The notes beneath the pieces are model-generated. The model ran no database searches. It had not been told where the DNA came from and saw only the letters and a program-made list of their open reading frames with translations. From positions 1-21,707 of IMG/VR virus record IMGVR_UViG_3300021093_000421: 21,707 bases of DNA. One strand, given 5' to 3'. This document shows, in pieces, positions 7,752 to 20,602 of this stretch (position 1 is the first letter of the stretch; each line of letters begins with the position of its first letter). A program made the position numbers and the translations under genes. This stretch comes from a virus.

Positions 7752-10171
7752 TAGAAACCTTTAAATAAAGATGTGAACTCCCCAAGAATTGAGGCGCCGC
7801 TTTTGGGCTTATAGATATCTTTTTCATCTTCTAATCCTAATTTGAAGTAACTTTGAGGCGTTTTTTCCGTTTTATCTGATAGCGAAAAAATTCCACTAAT
7901 TCCATCGTCGCTACTGCCCATTAATTTTTCAATTGCGCTCAGAGAAGCAATAGGATTTTTAGTGCTAAGCCCTGTAAACTTCAGGTCGCCCGCCTTGCCT
8001 CCAGCTTTTGTTAAAAGTTTCTGCTCTTCATAATCCAAATCGGGGAAAAACTTTTGATAAAATTCTCCTTCATCTCCTGAGTAACCATATTTTTTGAAAG
8101 TTTTATATAAAGCTGTTTCTCCCTCAGGAGAGCCAGCGGTATCTGTTGGCTTTTCAATATAAAAAACACCAAGATTTTTTTGGCTTGGTTTTACACCTTT
8201 CTTTTGTAATTCTTTAATCTGTTTGCTAACATCTGCGGCAGAAACAGTTTTAAACGTATTGGCAATATAGCCTTTTAAATCATCATAAGAACCCGCAAAA
8301 GTATCCAGACCAAACGTTTTTAAAACGTCTCCCCAAGTAGATTTATCATTGGGGTTTACTTTAGCGCTAGAAAGTAAATTATCCGCAAATTCGGTAGGCT
8401 TAATAAATTCACCAAAGATTGACATTTTGCCAGCCTTGTCTTTAATGGCGGGCAAAATTGTTGAATAAATATAATCTTGGACTTTGGCTGGGGTCCACAA
8501 ATCTCCCGCAGCATCAAAGCCTTGCGACTGTCCCTTGACCTGAAAATGCAATTTTGCAAATGCTTCTTTATCAGTTGGGTCAACTCCATACTGATAAGCT
8601 TTTGCGTACCAATATCCATTTTGTGCTTTGTATTGTTGTTTGGCATCTTCCCAATCTGCGGATACAATTTCCGCCTGTTTCTTATAAGATTCTTCTTGCT
8701 GTTTACTTCCAACAAGCTGTTTTACTTCTTCTGATTTTAAATTTGCATTTGGATTAAAGTAAAAGTCGGCATTGAAGTATGCGTTTTGAATGCTTTTAAT
8801 TTGGTCTAGATATGTCTGCGCTTGAGCAGCTCCAACTTCAGCTGCTGCGTTGAGTACGTCTTGAGTCTGAAATGGGTTTTGATTTTTATCTTCAACGTCA
8901 ACGTATTCAATAAATTCACTAATTGTTTGTGATTGATTAAACCGTGGAACAAGATATTGCTCAATAAAATCTTTTGCAAAATTTGCTTCAATATTAATTT
9001 GTTCTTTAGCTTCTTTTGTAGTTAAACCAAGTTCTAAATCTTTTTCATATTGTTTTTTCAAATTATTGTCAAACCATTGCTGCCAGTTATATACAGTGCT
9101 CGTGTTGACACCACTCATTTTTGTAAGAGCAGTTTGCAATCCCTCCTCGGCTTTTTTGCCACTGGTGACCGCAAGTATTCCACCTACACCAGAATCTCCA
9201 AGAATAGAATCACTCAGAGTTTCGTTAATATTTAATAACTCCTGAAAACCTGAAAGACCTCCCATCATGGACAAAAGCTGTTCTTTAGCCTTTGCCTTTT
9301 GCATTTCTTTGACAGTATTTTTTAACACAGCTTGAGTTAAAGCGCCAAATTGTTTTGTTTTTTTAACGATATCAGCGCCCAAGGAGGTGCTGGCAATCTC
9401 CTCTAATTGCGTGCCAGGAGTAGAACTTTTTAAAGCCTCGTAACTAATTCCAAGCTGTTTTTCTTTTAAACCTTGAATTTCCGCGTCTGTAGGTTTTTTT
9501 TCAATATATTCTTTGGCGGCTTTTAATTCTTCCGCTTTATTACCACGCTTGCCGGCTGGTTTGCCCACCCAGGTATAGTTATATAAAGCGTATGTATTTG
9601 CATTTTTATATTGCTCAGTAATGTCTAAGTCGCCAGCTTTTACCGCGTCGTCCCAAGTTGCTTTAACTTGAGGATTTTCAGTTAAGTAATAAGATGCATC
9701 AAAGGTTCCAGCTGGAGGTTTGGCTCCCAAATCTATGTTCCAGCCGGTACCGATTTTTTCATTTTTGTAAAACGTGTTATAGCTATTGAATAAAGAGTCA
9801 ATATCTTCTTGTTTAAAGGTTGCCTTCTTGGCTTCGTCTTCAATAGTTTTTAAATTATTTTTTTGTTGTAAATAATCTCCTCCCTTAGTATTTGTCGCAG
9901 TTTGCAAAACTTTGTTATAAATTGCATTTTTATCATTTGCTATTTTATTTGCGGCGTTATTGTCTGCATTTTTTTTAGCGTTAATTTTATTTTTAGCGAC
10001 ATTATCTGGAAGGGGTATGCTTATGCCAGGAACAAAAATCGGTTGCCCTTTTGGGCTATAGACCGTTTTTCCGGGAGATGTTTGGCTTTTCGGATAATCT
10101 GTTTTGTAATCAGTTTTGAGCTTGTCGTTTTCGTAGTTGACTTGCCACTTTCCGTTGTAGTAGTAAAGCAT
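7751..10171 (-). CDS. Large virion-associated protein candidate, 806 aa
   Basis: The longest gene of the window begins MLYYYNGKWQVNYENDKLKT. It is rich in Lys, Asn, Gln, Ala and Tyr, mostly helical, and more AT-rich than the head genes. Residues about 150-180 contain FDASYYLTENPQVKATWDDA followed by GDLDITEQY, a pattern resembling the FDxxYYLxxNPDV..GxxxxxHY units found in some large secreted or virion proteins. The start overlaps the stop of the HNH gene (TAATG). Size, helical character and position among late genes fit an internal core or DNA-ejection protein, or a tail protein. No lytic, protease or polymerase motif is visible. Confidence 0.7.
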   Translation of the reverse strand: MLYYYNGKWQVNYENDKLKTDYKTDYPKSQTSPGKTVYSPKGQPIFVPGISIPLPDNVAKNKINAKKNADNNAANKIANDKNAIYNKVLQTATNTKGGDYLQQKNNLKTIEDEAKKATFKQEDIDSLFNSYNTFYKNEKIGTGWNIDLGAKPPAGTFDASYYLTENPQVKATWDDAVKAGDLDITEQYKNANTYALYNYTWVGKPAGKRGNKAEELKAAKEYIEKKPTDAEIQGLKEKQLGISYEALKSSTPGTQLEEIASTSLGADIVKKTKQFGALTQAVLKNTVKEMQKAKAKEQLLSMMGGLSGFQELLNINETLSDSILGDSGVGGILAVTSGKKAEEGLQTALTKMSGVNTSTVYNWQQWFDNNLKKQYEKDLELGLTTKEAKEQINIEANFAKDFIEQYLVPRFNQSQTISEFIEYVDVEDKNQNPFQTQDVLNAAAEVGAAQAQTYLDQIKSIQNAYFNADFYFNPNANLKSEEVKQLVGSKQQEESYKKQAEIVSADWEDAKQQYKAQNGYWYAKAYQYGVDPTDKEAFAKLHFQVKGQSQGFDAAGDLWTPAKVQDYIYSTILPAIKDKAGKMSIFGEFIKPTEFADNLLSSAKVNPNDKSTWGDVLKTFGLDTFAGSYDDLKGYIANTFKTVSAADVSKQIKELQKKGVKPSQKNLGVFYIEKPTDTAGSPEGETALYKTFKKYGYSGDEGEFYQKFFPDLDYEEQKLLTKAGGKAGDLKFTGLSTKNPIASLSAIEKLMGSSDDGISGIFSLSDKTEKTPQSYFKLGLEDEKDIYKPKSGASILGEFTSLFKGF

Positions 10172-10542
10172 TATCCTGCCGCAAAACTTGGAAGCATCGT
10201 ATCCACATTATAAGAAAGGAGGCTTATCAGGTCTTCTGACATCCATGCCTGGATTTTTGTCAGCCTTTCCTCACTGAAATATATCTGTTGTCGGTACCAA
10301 TCTTCCATTTTAGTGCTTGCTTTATTTGAATTGCATCGACGACAAGCTGGAAGAAGATTATGTCGATAGCTTGAACCAGACCGAAAGCGGGGAATGATGT
10401 GATCAAGCGATGTGGCTGGCTCGCCACAATAACCACAGGCATGATCCCAGGCTTCGTATATTGATTGCCGATAACGTTTTTTTGCTAACTTGGGAGTTAA
10501 TTCAATCAGTAGAGAGAGGGGTTCCTGCTCGCAACTGAACAT
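10171..10542 (-). CDS. HNH endonuclease
   Basis: This 123-residue protein has a classic zinc-bound HNH core: C36-G-Y-C39, then SLDHIIPR (D47, H48), NLLPACRRC (N62, C67, C70) and NSNK. The four cysteines would hold the structural zinc and the DH...N residues the catalytic metal. The N-terminus has a short helical segment. It lies directly before the 806-aa gene (TAATG overlap), away from any recognisable terminase, so it is more likely a free-standing homing endonuclease than the packaging HNH found next to terminase, although that remains possible. It groups with the excisionase-like and recombinase-like genes just upstream. Confidence 0.85.
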   Translation of the reverse strand: MFSCEQEPLSLLIELTPKLAKKRYRQSIYEAWDHACGYCGEPATSLDHIIPRFRSGSSYRHNLLPACRRCNSNKASTKMEDWYRQQIYFSEERLTKIQAWMSEDLISLLSYNVDTMLPSFAAG

Positions 10543-18596: not shown

Positions 18597-19751
18597 TCAG
18601 AGAACGCCGTCATCAGACACAAAGCTGTAGGCGGTGGTCACGAAGTCCTTGTTCAGGATCTCGAAGCCAGCGTACAGTTGCCAGATGAGGATGATGAAAC
18701 GGCTGAAGTCGTCGTTGTTGTTGATCAACACCTGAGCGTTCGGGCCGCCGATACCAACGCCAATGGCTTGAGGGCCGAAGAAGAAACCTTGAGCAACTTC
18801 TTGGTTGGCATAAGGGGCAGCGCCGGTGAAGGAAGCCGAAACGTTCTTGGTCGGGAAGTTGGTCGACTCGAAGAACTTAACGCCTTCAAACTGAACACCA
18901 GTTGGCATGACGGGTTCACCAGCCAGGAAATAAGCCTGACCAGCTTGGGGACCCATGTAGAAGCTGGCGTTGTTCGGCATCATGGGATTGCCCATGTACA
19001 TGCCTTGGCCAGGGTTGCCAGCGTAACGAGCAATCTCACGGAAGTCGGCATCACGACGCAGGTGCATCATGAAAGTGGGATCGCAAATGCAACGATACAG
19101 ACCATCAGCAAAGGTCGGAACGTTGCGCTTACGCAGATCCTTGACAACAGTCAGAAGATCGGTAGCAACGTGGAACTGCTGCACTTGAGCGGTGTACTCA
19201 GCAGCGGTATAGGTGATTTGACCAGAAGCGCTCTTGGTTTTGCCACCAGGGAAGTAGTAACCACCTTGGGTACCAGAAGCTTCGCCATTTGCTTCAGCTT
19301 TGGCAAGTTCGTCAATAAAGACGCGGTCACGCCAACGGCGATAGTCGTCAAGCAGGGTCAAGCTGCCGATCGACTGGTGGAACATATTCAGGTTGCCGGT
19401 ATCCAGCAGCAGACGCTGGGCGGTAACCAGGGTTTCACGAGCAATCTTAAAGGTGCTGGGTTGGGTCGGATCACCCGGATCAGCAGGGCCGGTGTATTCC
19501 TTCAGCACAACAAGCACCTTCTCTTTGGTGATGTTGCGGCTGTTGGCAGTACCGATGGTCTGGTCGGACACACGCTCGCGGCTGTCCTTGGTACCAGGGG
19601 TACCCCAGAACTTGTAGCGATCAAGCTGAACGGTTTGACCGGGTTGACGGGTAAAGTCGTGGACGACCACGGGCTCAACCGCCATTTCAGCGATGTAAGC
19701 AGGATGGGGACGGTAAAGTTCCGCACCCAAAATCTTAGGAAAGTCGTTCTC
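18597..19751 (-). CDS. Major capsid protein, 3' exon
   Basis: The visible frame codes for about 385 residues, running NDFPKILGAELYRPHPAYIA at its start to NKDFVTTAYSFVSDDGVL. Features such as YRWRDRVFIDELAKA, the Pro/Gly-rich N-arm and ADGLYRCICDPTFMMHLRRD followed by EIARYAG recall HK97-fold capsid proteins of the N4-gp56 type. Place between scaffold and decoration gene and the strong codon bias support the call. No proper start exists: the first in-frame start is TTG at 19730 with no ribosome-binding site at a workable distance, and the frame is closed by TAA (at about 19769) within group I intron sequence. Splicing to a tiny first exon (candidate GTG at 20587) would supply the N-terminus, for example MFI-ENDFPKIL. 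The exact 3' splice site, after 19752 or 19749, is uncertain. Confidence 0.88.
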   Translation of the reverse strand, partial: ENDFPKILGAELYRPHPAYIAEMAVEPVVVHDFTRQPGQTVQLDRYKFWGTPGTKDSRERVSDQTIGTANSRNITKEKVLVVLKEYTGPADPGDPTQPSTFKIARETLVTAQRLLLDTGNLNMFHQSIGSLTLLDDYRRWRDRVFIDELAKAEANGEASGTQGGYYFPGGKTKSASGQITYTAAEYTAQVQQFHVATDLLTVVKDLRKRNVPTFADGLYRCICDPTFMMHLRRDADFREIARYAGNPGQGMYMGNPMMPNNASFYMGPQAGQAYFLAGEPVMPTGVQFEGVKFFESTNFPTKNVSASFTGAAPYANQEVAQGFFFGPQAIGVGIGGPNAQVLINNNDDFSRFIILIWQLYAGFEILNKDFVTTAYSFVSDDGVL

Positions 19752-19974
19752 CTGGTCTCTAATCTCTTAGAGGGGTGGACTATCTCTTCATCCCTGAGGG
19801 ATGCCGGACGCTAAATCTGGTATTACGTAACAAGATCGTGTTACCCCCAGTAGTCTCTGCACCTTCCAATCACGGGCTTGATTGGCTTGGCTCAGGATTA
19901 CCCTCGTCTTTACGTTAGGGCTTCCCTGAATTCATCCGGTTTGCACTCATCAATTACTTGGTGAGGTGACAACG

Positions 19975-20003
19975 TTGAGCGTTCAGGTGAGGTATGTTAC
20001 AGT
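19975..20003 (+). promoter_or_regulatory. Possible promoter of the intron-encoded endonuclease gene
   Basis: TTGAGC (19975-19980) and TACAGT (19998-20003) are spaced 17 bp apart, 25 bp before the ATG at 20028. Each hexamer matches the sigma-70 consensus at four of six positions. Being antisense to the intron, the gene needs its own promoter, so some signal here is expected. Confidence 0.35.
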
Positions 20004-20027
20004 GTTGGAAACTTGTTTATAAACAAC

Positions 20028-20573
20028 ATGAATCCAAAACTTGTACCTGGATTTGGAAATCTTTACTTAACTGAAGAAGGAAAAGCTTTTGAAAAACAAC
20101 TTGATCAAAAAAATCAAGAATATTTTGTAGAGCTTTCTATTAGTTCAACCAGTTCTTACGATCGTATTTCAGTCCTTGTTGATGGAAAACGGAAGCGTTT
20201 TCATTTGCATGTCTTGATGGCGGTTGCTTTTTTAGGATTAGATCTTCGTTCGCATGGAACAAATACCTTTTCTTTACAAGTAGATCATGTAGATAACAAC
20301 AAGAGAAATAATCAAGTTGAAAATCTTCAGATCGTCACCAAACAAGAGAATTTGACAAGGGCCTGGAAAACGGGTTGTTATAAGAACAATGGTTTTGCCA
20401 GTAAAGGAAAGCCGAAGAAGTCTTTAAGAAAGTTTTCTTCAGAAGACGTAAAGCAAATTAAAACTTTAAAAGGAGCAGGTCTTTCTTATAGAAAAATTGC
20501 TGAAAAGTTTAACTGCAATCACGTAGCTATTTACCAAATCTTGAAAGGTAATACCTACCAGGATCTGAACTAG
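20028..20573 (+). CDS. HNH homing endonuclease within the intron, opposite strand
   Basis: The frame opens at a TTG (20013), but ATG 20028 (MNPKLVPGFGNLYLTEEGKA) is the better start; no strong ribosome-binding site is seen. Residues 57-110 form an HNH_3-type nuclease domain: KRFHLHVLMAVAFLG, then LQVDHVDNNKRNNQVENLQ (H87; N95 and N99 as candidate HNH Asn), then VTKQEN. The C-terminal residues 137-180 contain a helix-turn-helix (EDVKQIKTLKGAGLSYRKIA, NHVAIYQILKG), the usual DNA-recognition module of phage intron endonucleases. It would cut intronless capsid genes and spread the intron by homing. The gene reads against the capsid gene, so it must be transcribed separately. AT content is higher than in the capsid gene, consistent with acquisition. 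Confidence 0.88.
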   Translation: MNPKLVPGFGNLYLTEEGKAFEKQLDQKNQEYFVELSISSTSSYDRISVLVDGKRKRFHLHVLMAVAFLGLDLRSHGTNTFSLQVDHVDNNKRNNQVENLQIVTKQENLTRAWKTGCYKNNGFASKGKPKKSLRKFSSEDVKQIKTLKGAGLSYRKIAEKFNCNHVAIYQILKGNTYQDLN

Positions 20574-20578
20574 CTATC

Positions 20579-20602
20579 AATAAACACCTTGGTTTATCCT
20601 CC
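20579..20602 (-). promoter_or_regulatory. Candidate capsid-gene ribosome-binding site and tiny 5' exon
   Basis: On the minus strand GGAGG (20602-20598) is followed after ten bases by GTG TTT ATT (20587-20579), which would encode fMet-Phe-Ile before an in-frame TAG at 20572-20570. ATAAAC and GTTTAT around the GTG can form a 6-bp hairpin that would bring the start closer to GGAGG. The last eight exon bases (TGTTTATT) can pair with GGTAAATA at 20535-20528 as a P1 ending in the required U-G pair. No other start with a ribosome-binding site exists between here and the capsid frame. Confidence 0.45.

Follow-up and report, generated by a model that had tools for sequence, protein, structure and literature searches.

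A predicted mobile group IA intron with an antisense HNH endonuclease gene near the start of an S-EIV1-like cyanophage major capsid gene

The major capsid gene gp13 of mycobacteriophage LittleE contains an intron, likely of group I, with a homing gene on the bottom strand, and its splicing was established by RT-PCR and by the N-terminus of the protein (PMC3706429). The LittleE intron is inserted far into the gene, at nt 496 (PMC11855218), and a further capsid-gene intron, in lactococcal phage Tuc2009, is cited in the LittleE study (PMC3706429). Among cyanophages, a group IA2 intron with P7.1 and P7.2 helices and an HNH nicking homing enzyme is described for the polymerase gene of Pf-WMP3 in the abstract and searched passages of one study (PMC3428280). 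A homing endonuclease gene in antisense orientation, that of I-DsqI, occurs in the L2066 group I intron of Didymium squamulosum, and its expression has been shown (PMC9548176).

The DNA analyzed here, referred to as the window, is 21,707 nucleotides of an IMG/VR virus record (IMGVR_UViG_3300021093_000421). It is a genome fragment from a relative of Synechococcus phage S-EIV1, as its homologous major capsid protein shows: the interrupted gene, on the minus strand, encodes a major head protein (PHROG 1357, E 2.5e-17), and the S-EIV1 capsid, the sole match among 50,697 phage records, is 85% identical over its full length. In the S-EIV1 record (KJ410740.1; L002, 4971-6122), the capsid gene is not annotated as such, and the locus is represented instead by an ORF on the other strand (AHV82227) and a piece of the C-terminal part (AHV82228). 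In the window, a 378-codon open frame runs antisense to most of the capsid gene (18678-19814, plus strand), which is probably an effect of composition. Elsewhere in the window, two minus-strand frames (371-2110 and 1-333) encode proteins of many SGATVTG...FT..TG.SG near-repeats with a fibre-like look. The features of the interrupted gene are as follows.

20598 to 20602, minus strand: capsid ribosome-binding site GGAGG, 10 nt before the GTG start
20576 to 20587, minus strand: capsid exon 1, GTG TTT ATT GAT (VFID), starting with GTG, as read from relatives without the intron
19749 to 20575, minus strand: group I intron of 827 nt, placed by the RF00028 match and the empty sites of relatives; exon 1 ends in U and the intron in G
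18597 to 19748, minus strand: capsid exon 2, of 383 codons and a stop codon, beginning AAC GAC TTT CCT, placed by PHROG 1357 and by identity to S-EIV1
20013 to 20573, plus strand: HNH homing endonuclease ORF, antisense to the capsid gene, starting at TTG 20013 or ATG 20028, with stop codon TAG at 20571-20573

The boundaries were fixed by comparison with intronless relatives, in which GTG TTY ATY GAT AAC GAC is uninterrupted and GGAGG is conserved at the same spacing from the GTG. The first-pass annotation of this DNA, which had placed a group I intron near the start of the capsid gene, named as the sign of an error a relative whose capsid gene aligns through the intron region without a gap. 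This check favoured the intron: the continuous genes of 56 distinct relatives simply lack 20575-19749. Removing that interval from the window reproduces their reading, GTG TTY ATY GAT AAC GAC TTT CC or close variants of it. The intron therefore lies 12 bases into the gene, after codon 4, and ends at 19749, since its excision gives exactly the sequence of the relatives; the edge proposed earlier, 19752, falls three bases short. The empty site reads GTGTTTATTGAT/AACGACTTTCC and the predicted spliced junction ATTGATAACGAC, with the exons joined in phase 0 (ATT GAT AAC GAC) as in the intronless genes. Counting distinct sequences, which are not independent events, exon position -4 is T in 81/81 intron alleles with a readable exon end and in 48/56 empty alleles (Fisher p 6e-4), and exon 2 begins AACG in 82/82 intron alleles versus 38/56 empty alleles (Fisher p 1e-8).

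Read without splicing, the gene gives GTG TTT ATT GAT AGC TAG, i.e., VFIDS followed by a stop at codon 6, so that a full-length capsid requires splicing, as had been proposed from the window alone. In the frame of exon 2, a TAA lies a few codons upstream of the AAC, and reading of the sequence found no ATG, GTG or TTG between them. The first start codon in that frame is TTG 19730, amid a strongly conserved stretch. Its presence would permit a reading in which no splicing occurs, the gene is cut short by the insertion and translation of the capsid begins internally at this TTG. We consider that extremely improbable: the TTG falls within the VFIDNDFPKI N-terminus that nearly all relatives keep, no well-placed ribosome-binding site precedes it, and, as set out below, compensatory changes preserve the ribozyme helices and the guide sequence matches both exons.

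A search with the Rfam group I covariance model RF00028 gave 91.1 bits (E 1.6e-22) for minus-strand positions 19999-19756 of the window, well above the gathering threshold of 50 bits. When the 239-nt core was folded alone, the minimum free energy (MFE) structure recovered P2, P3, P4, P5, P6, P7.1/P7.2, P8 and P9 (z = -2.6), and none of 200 shuffled sequences was equally stable. The elements of the predicted ribozyme are listed here.

20565 to 20570, minus strand: 5' strand of the P1 extension, GUUCAG, overlapping the last HNH codons and closing the HNH-containing loop
19981 to 19986, minus strand: 3' strand of the P1 extension, CUGAAC, partner of 20570-20565
19967 to 19974, minus strand: internal guide sequence CGUUGUCA, invariant in 59 distinct introns
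19933 to 19939, minus strand: 5' strand of P3, CCGGAUG, with its 3' strand at 19810-19804, from the RF00028 match and the MFE fold
19851 to 19855, minus strand: 5' strand of P7, GACUA, with its 3' strand UAGUC at 19782-19778, site of the guanosine-binding pocket
19817 to 19850, minus strand: P7.1 (CUGG:CCAG) around P7.2 (GUAACA:UGUUAC), a hallmark of subgroup IA, in the MFE fold
19757 to 19772, minus strand: P9, the hairpin CUCUAA-GAGA-UUAGAG, close to the 3' splice site, in the MFE fold

Alignment of the 59 distinct introns revealed compensatory cells in P2 (66), P7.2 (20), P6 (9), P9 (8), P7 (6, a change from U-A to C-G in 6/59 sequences), P6a (2), P8 (1) and the P1 extension (1), the strands of the last pairing in 59/59 sequences. 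Unpaired cells were near zero apart from the final P9 pair, and P1, P3, P4, P5 and P10 had no variation in this set on which a test could be made. The core from P3 to P8 with the guanosine site in P7 places the element in group I, and the extra helices P7.1 and P7.2, nested between P7 and P3, place it in subgroup IA, in agreement with the first-pass annotation. Judged by these helices and by its distribution, it is almost certainly a mobile group I intron of subgroup IA, an assignment made at the level of IA and not of IA1 versus IA2.

The guide sequence pairs through GUCA (19970-19967) with UGAU at the end of exon 1, forming P1, and through CGUU (19974-19971) with AACG at the start of exon 2, forming P10; the U.G pair at the 5' splice site in P1, P10 and the intron-final G (19749) are all present. 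The P1 helix consists of four exon-intron pairs that are invariant within the main clade, and its covariation comes from one divergent lineage (L110, L190, L197 and L198), in which an intron at the same site has exon CGAU facing guide GUCG, a compensatory change of U to C in the exon and of A to G in the guide. Another candidate for P1, GUUUAUUGAU with GUUUAUAAAC (20024-20015), was rejected: this stretch is lost or altered in introns that lack the HNH gene and is variable in relatives, whereas CGUUGUCA is invariant. The same pairings bear on an alternative set of boundaries, in which exon 1 is only GTG TTT ATT and exon 2 begins GAG AAC, giving VFIENDF. Although an exon-final U and an intron-final G are satisfied there as well, the codon concerned reads GAT or GAC and not GAG in the empty alleles, and the guide pairs with UGAU and AACG rather than with AUU and GAG, which makes these boundaries very improbable. 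Of the options offered in the first-pass annotation, phase-0 joining and an exon 2 starting AAC GAC thus stand, and the three-codon exon and the GAG AAC junction give way to the four codons GTG TTT ATT GAT seen in the relatives.

About two thirds of the intron is taken up by the HNH gene (~560 nt), which the earlier description had left out. Because the flanking GUUCAG (20570-20565) and CUGAAC (19986-19981) pair in all sequences aligned, the gene is placed in the loop of the P1 extension between them, with two bases separating its stop codon and the 5' splice site. The start codon is ambiguous; counted from ATG 20028, the protein has 181 amino acids. It matches Pfam HNH_3 above the cutoff (residues 82-113, 3.9e-8) and PHROG 59 (HNH; E 2.3e-25). 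At the C-terminal end, PHROG 517 (HTH DNA binding protein) is matched at residues 101-180 (E 3.6e-7), and HTH_38 at residues 139-174 (E 2.7e-4) with 21.1 bits, under its 27-bit cutoff. The only natural solved structure matched by a profile of 12 HNH sequences was PDB 1U3E (E 6.6e-6, ~77 residues, covering the HNH core), which we take to be I-HmuI from the DNA polymerase intron of phage SPO1. By this profile match, the enzyme is I-HmuI-like. The ORF is intact in 73/73 long introns, and its frame has the lowest dN/dS of the six frames (~0.11, from 65 introns with the standard N-terminus). Of 78 HNH loci, 73 lie in a capsid intron and the remaining five are cut by a contig end. A consensus scan found no sigma-70-type promoter for the HNH gene; a weak TTGAGC-17-TATGCT pair, which ranks first in just 11 of the 50 distinct HNH upstream regions, is a lead only. 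A second HNH endonuclease gene in the window (10171-10542, minus strand) is free-standing and of another family (PF01844).

At this single site in the capsid gene there are 62 empty alleles, 73 introns with the HNH gene and nine HNH-less or remnant introns. Eight of the last are 271-281 nt long, most of them closing the loop by a short stem, and the ninth, of 325 nt, keeps pieces from both ends of the HNH gene. Intron state changes 26 times on the capsid tree, with at least 16 changes forced by well-supported branches, and an intron-bearing and an empty allele can have capsids just 1% apart (L009 and L011). In one pair of phages (L251 and L252), all HNH third positions compared are identical and capsid third positions differ by 28.5%. 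Long relatives, of up to ~85 kb, each contain a single strong RF00028 match. The patchiness of the intron on the capsid tree and the identical HNH genes within diverged capsids indicate that the element is mobile, as do the intact homing endonuclease that it encodes and its horizontal transfer at one fixed site. Such a pattern of patchy presence and HNH transfer is, on these comparisons, the signature of a homing element, and recombination of the capsid gene could contribute to the patchiness.

In the four divergent phages (L110, L190, L197 and L198), this site is occupied by a different group I intron. Capsid genes of such divergent S-EIV1-like phages (L190, minus strand, ~819-2971; L110) are interrupted by as many as four group I matches, two to three of them above the Rfam cutoff, and one weak match in L190 contains a LAGLIDADG_2 gene on the sense strand (E 5.8e-14). 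From these matches, the capsid gene of the S-EIV1-like phages looks like an intron hotspot.

The distribution also bears on the proposal, made in the first-pass annotation, that the intron is a timing or host-sensing switch, with delayed or host-dependent splicing timing capsid production. That capsid production is impossible without splicing speaks for it, as does the distance of only 12 nt between the start and the 5' splice site, which lies within the stretch that an initiating ribosome is expected to cover, where initiation and P1 should compete. However, close relatives do without the intron even at the 1% capsid divergence noted above, the changes of state are numerous, and beyond the ribozyme, which is the only Rfam match above threshold, there is no conserved aptamer-like or regulatory element. 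With no sign of regulated splicing, and with patchiness, horizontal spread in the recent past and an HNH gene under selection all fitting a mobile, selfish element, we regard a switch as improbable. A related idea is that an initiating ribosome and P1 are mutually exclusive on the RNA, because of the same 12-nt spacing, so that a race between ribosome and splicing at the GTG sets capsid output, antisense HNH transcription across the capsid start tunes it further, and the homing element acts as a governor of capsid production as well. This idea is speculative and unlikely.

We are therefore left, with high confidence, with a mobile group IA intron that is inserted after codon 4 of an S-EIV1-like capsid gene, is predicted to splice in phase 0 and would be spread by the antisense HNH enzyme. 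In the proposed mechanism, the guide CGUUGUCA would pair with UGAU at the end of exon 1 and guanosine would attack after GAU; exon 2, held through AACG in P10, would then be ligated in phase 0, restoring VFID-NDFPK. In mixed infections, the HNH enzyme probably nicks or cleaves capsid alleles that lack the intron, and repair of the cut allele would copy the intron in. In the td gene of phage T4, splicing suffers when the intron ORF is translated into the core, and this translation is kept under tight repression (PMC2988022). The backward orientation of the HNH gene would keep its ribosomes off the capsid pre-mRNA and leave folding of the ribozyme undisturbed, thereby avoiding a conflict of the td type at the price of requiring transcription of its own.

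The position of the intron at the start of the capsid gene is unusual. This one site offers a large natural series of empty alleles, HNH-containing introns, remnant introns and a different group I intron in a sister clade, from which the homing cycle of gain, enzyme loss and intron loss can be studied directly. A heavily expressed capsid gene here tolerates an intron inside the ribosome footprint expected at its start codon, which makes the conflict between ribosome and splicing testable. Automatic annotation will miss the first codons of this capsid gene, and the capsid of the S-EIV1 record is already mis-annotated.

A literature search by title and term found no earlier account of introns in the capsid genes of S-EIV1-like phages, nor of an antisense HNH gene in a P1 loop together with a 12-nt first exon. 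The closest precedent is LittleE, which shares a capsid intron with an antisense HNH homing gene; splicing has been shown in LittleE, and the window intron is known from sequence. The LittleE record (JF937101) confirms the antisense HNH annotation and contains a weak RF00028 core of 30.7 bits, compared with 91.1 bits in the window. The LittleE insertion at nt 496 contrasts with an intron 12 nt into the capsid gene, its core precedes the HNH gene, which thus sits 3' of the core and not in P1, and its HNH protein, gp14, has no detectable similarity to that of the window. Pf-WMP3, as far as the abstract and passages searched describe it, shares a cyanophage setting, an HNH enzyme and P7.1/P7.2, but its host gene is a DNA polymerase and not a capsid gene, and those parts of the paper (PMC3428280) report no antisense homing gene. 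I-HmuI resembles the window enzyme over the ~77 residues of the HNH core and differs in host gene, the SPO1 DNA polymerase. The I-DsqI intron shares an antisense homing gene but is a group IE intron in nuclear rDNA, with a His-Cys box enzyme in P9.2 for which its own RNA polymerase II transcript has been proposed (PMC9548176). Given LittleE, Pf-WMP3 and the antisense homing genes of rDNA, each ingredient of the window intron has a precedent.
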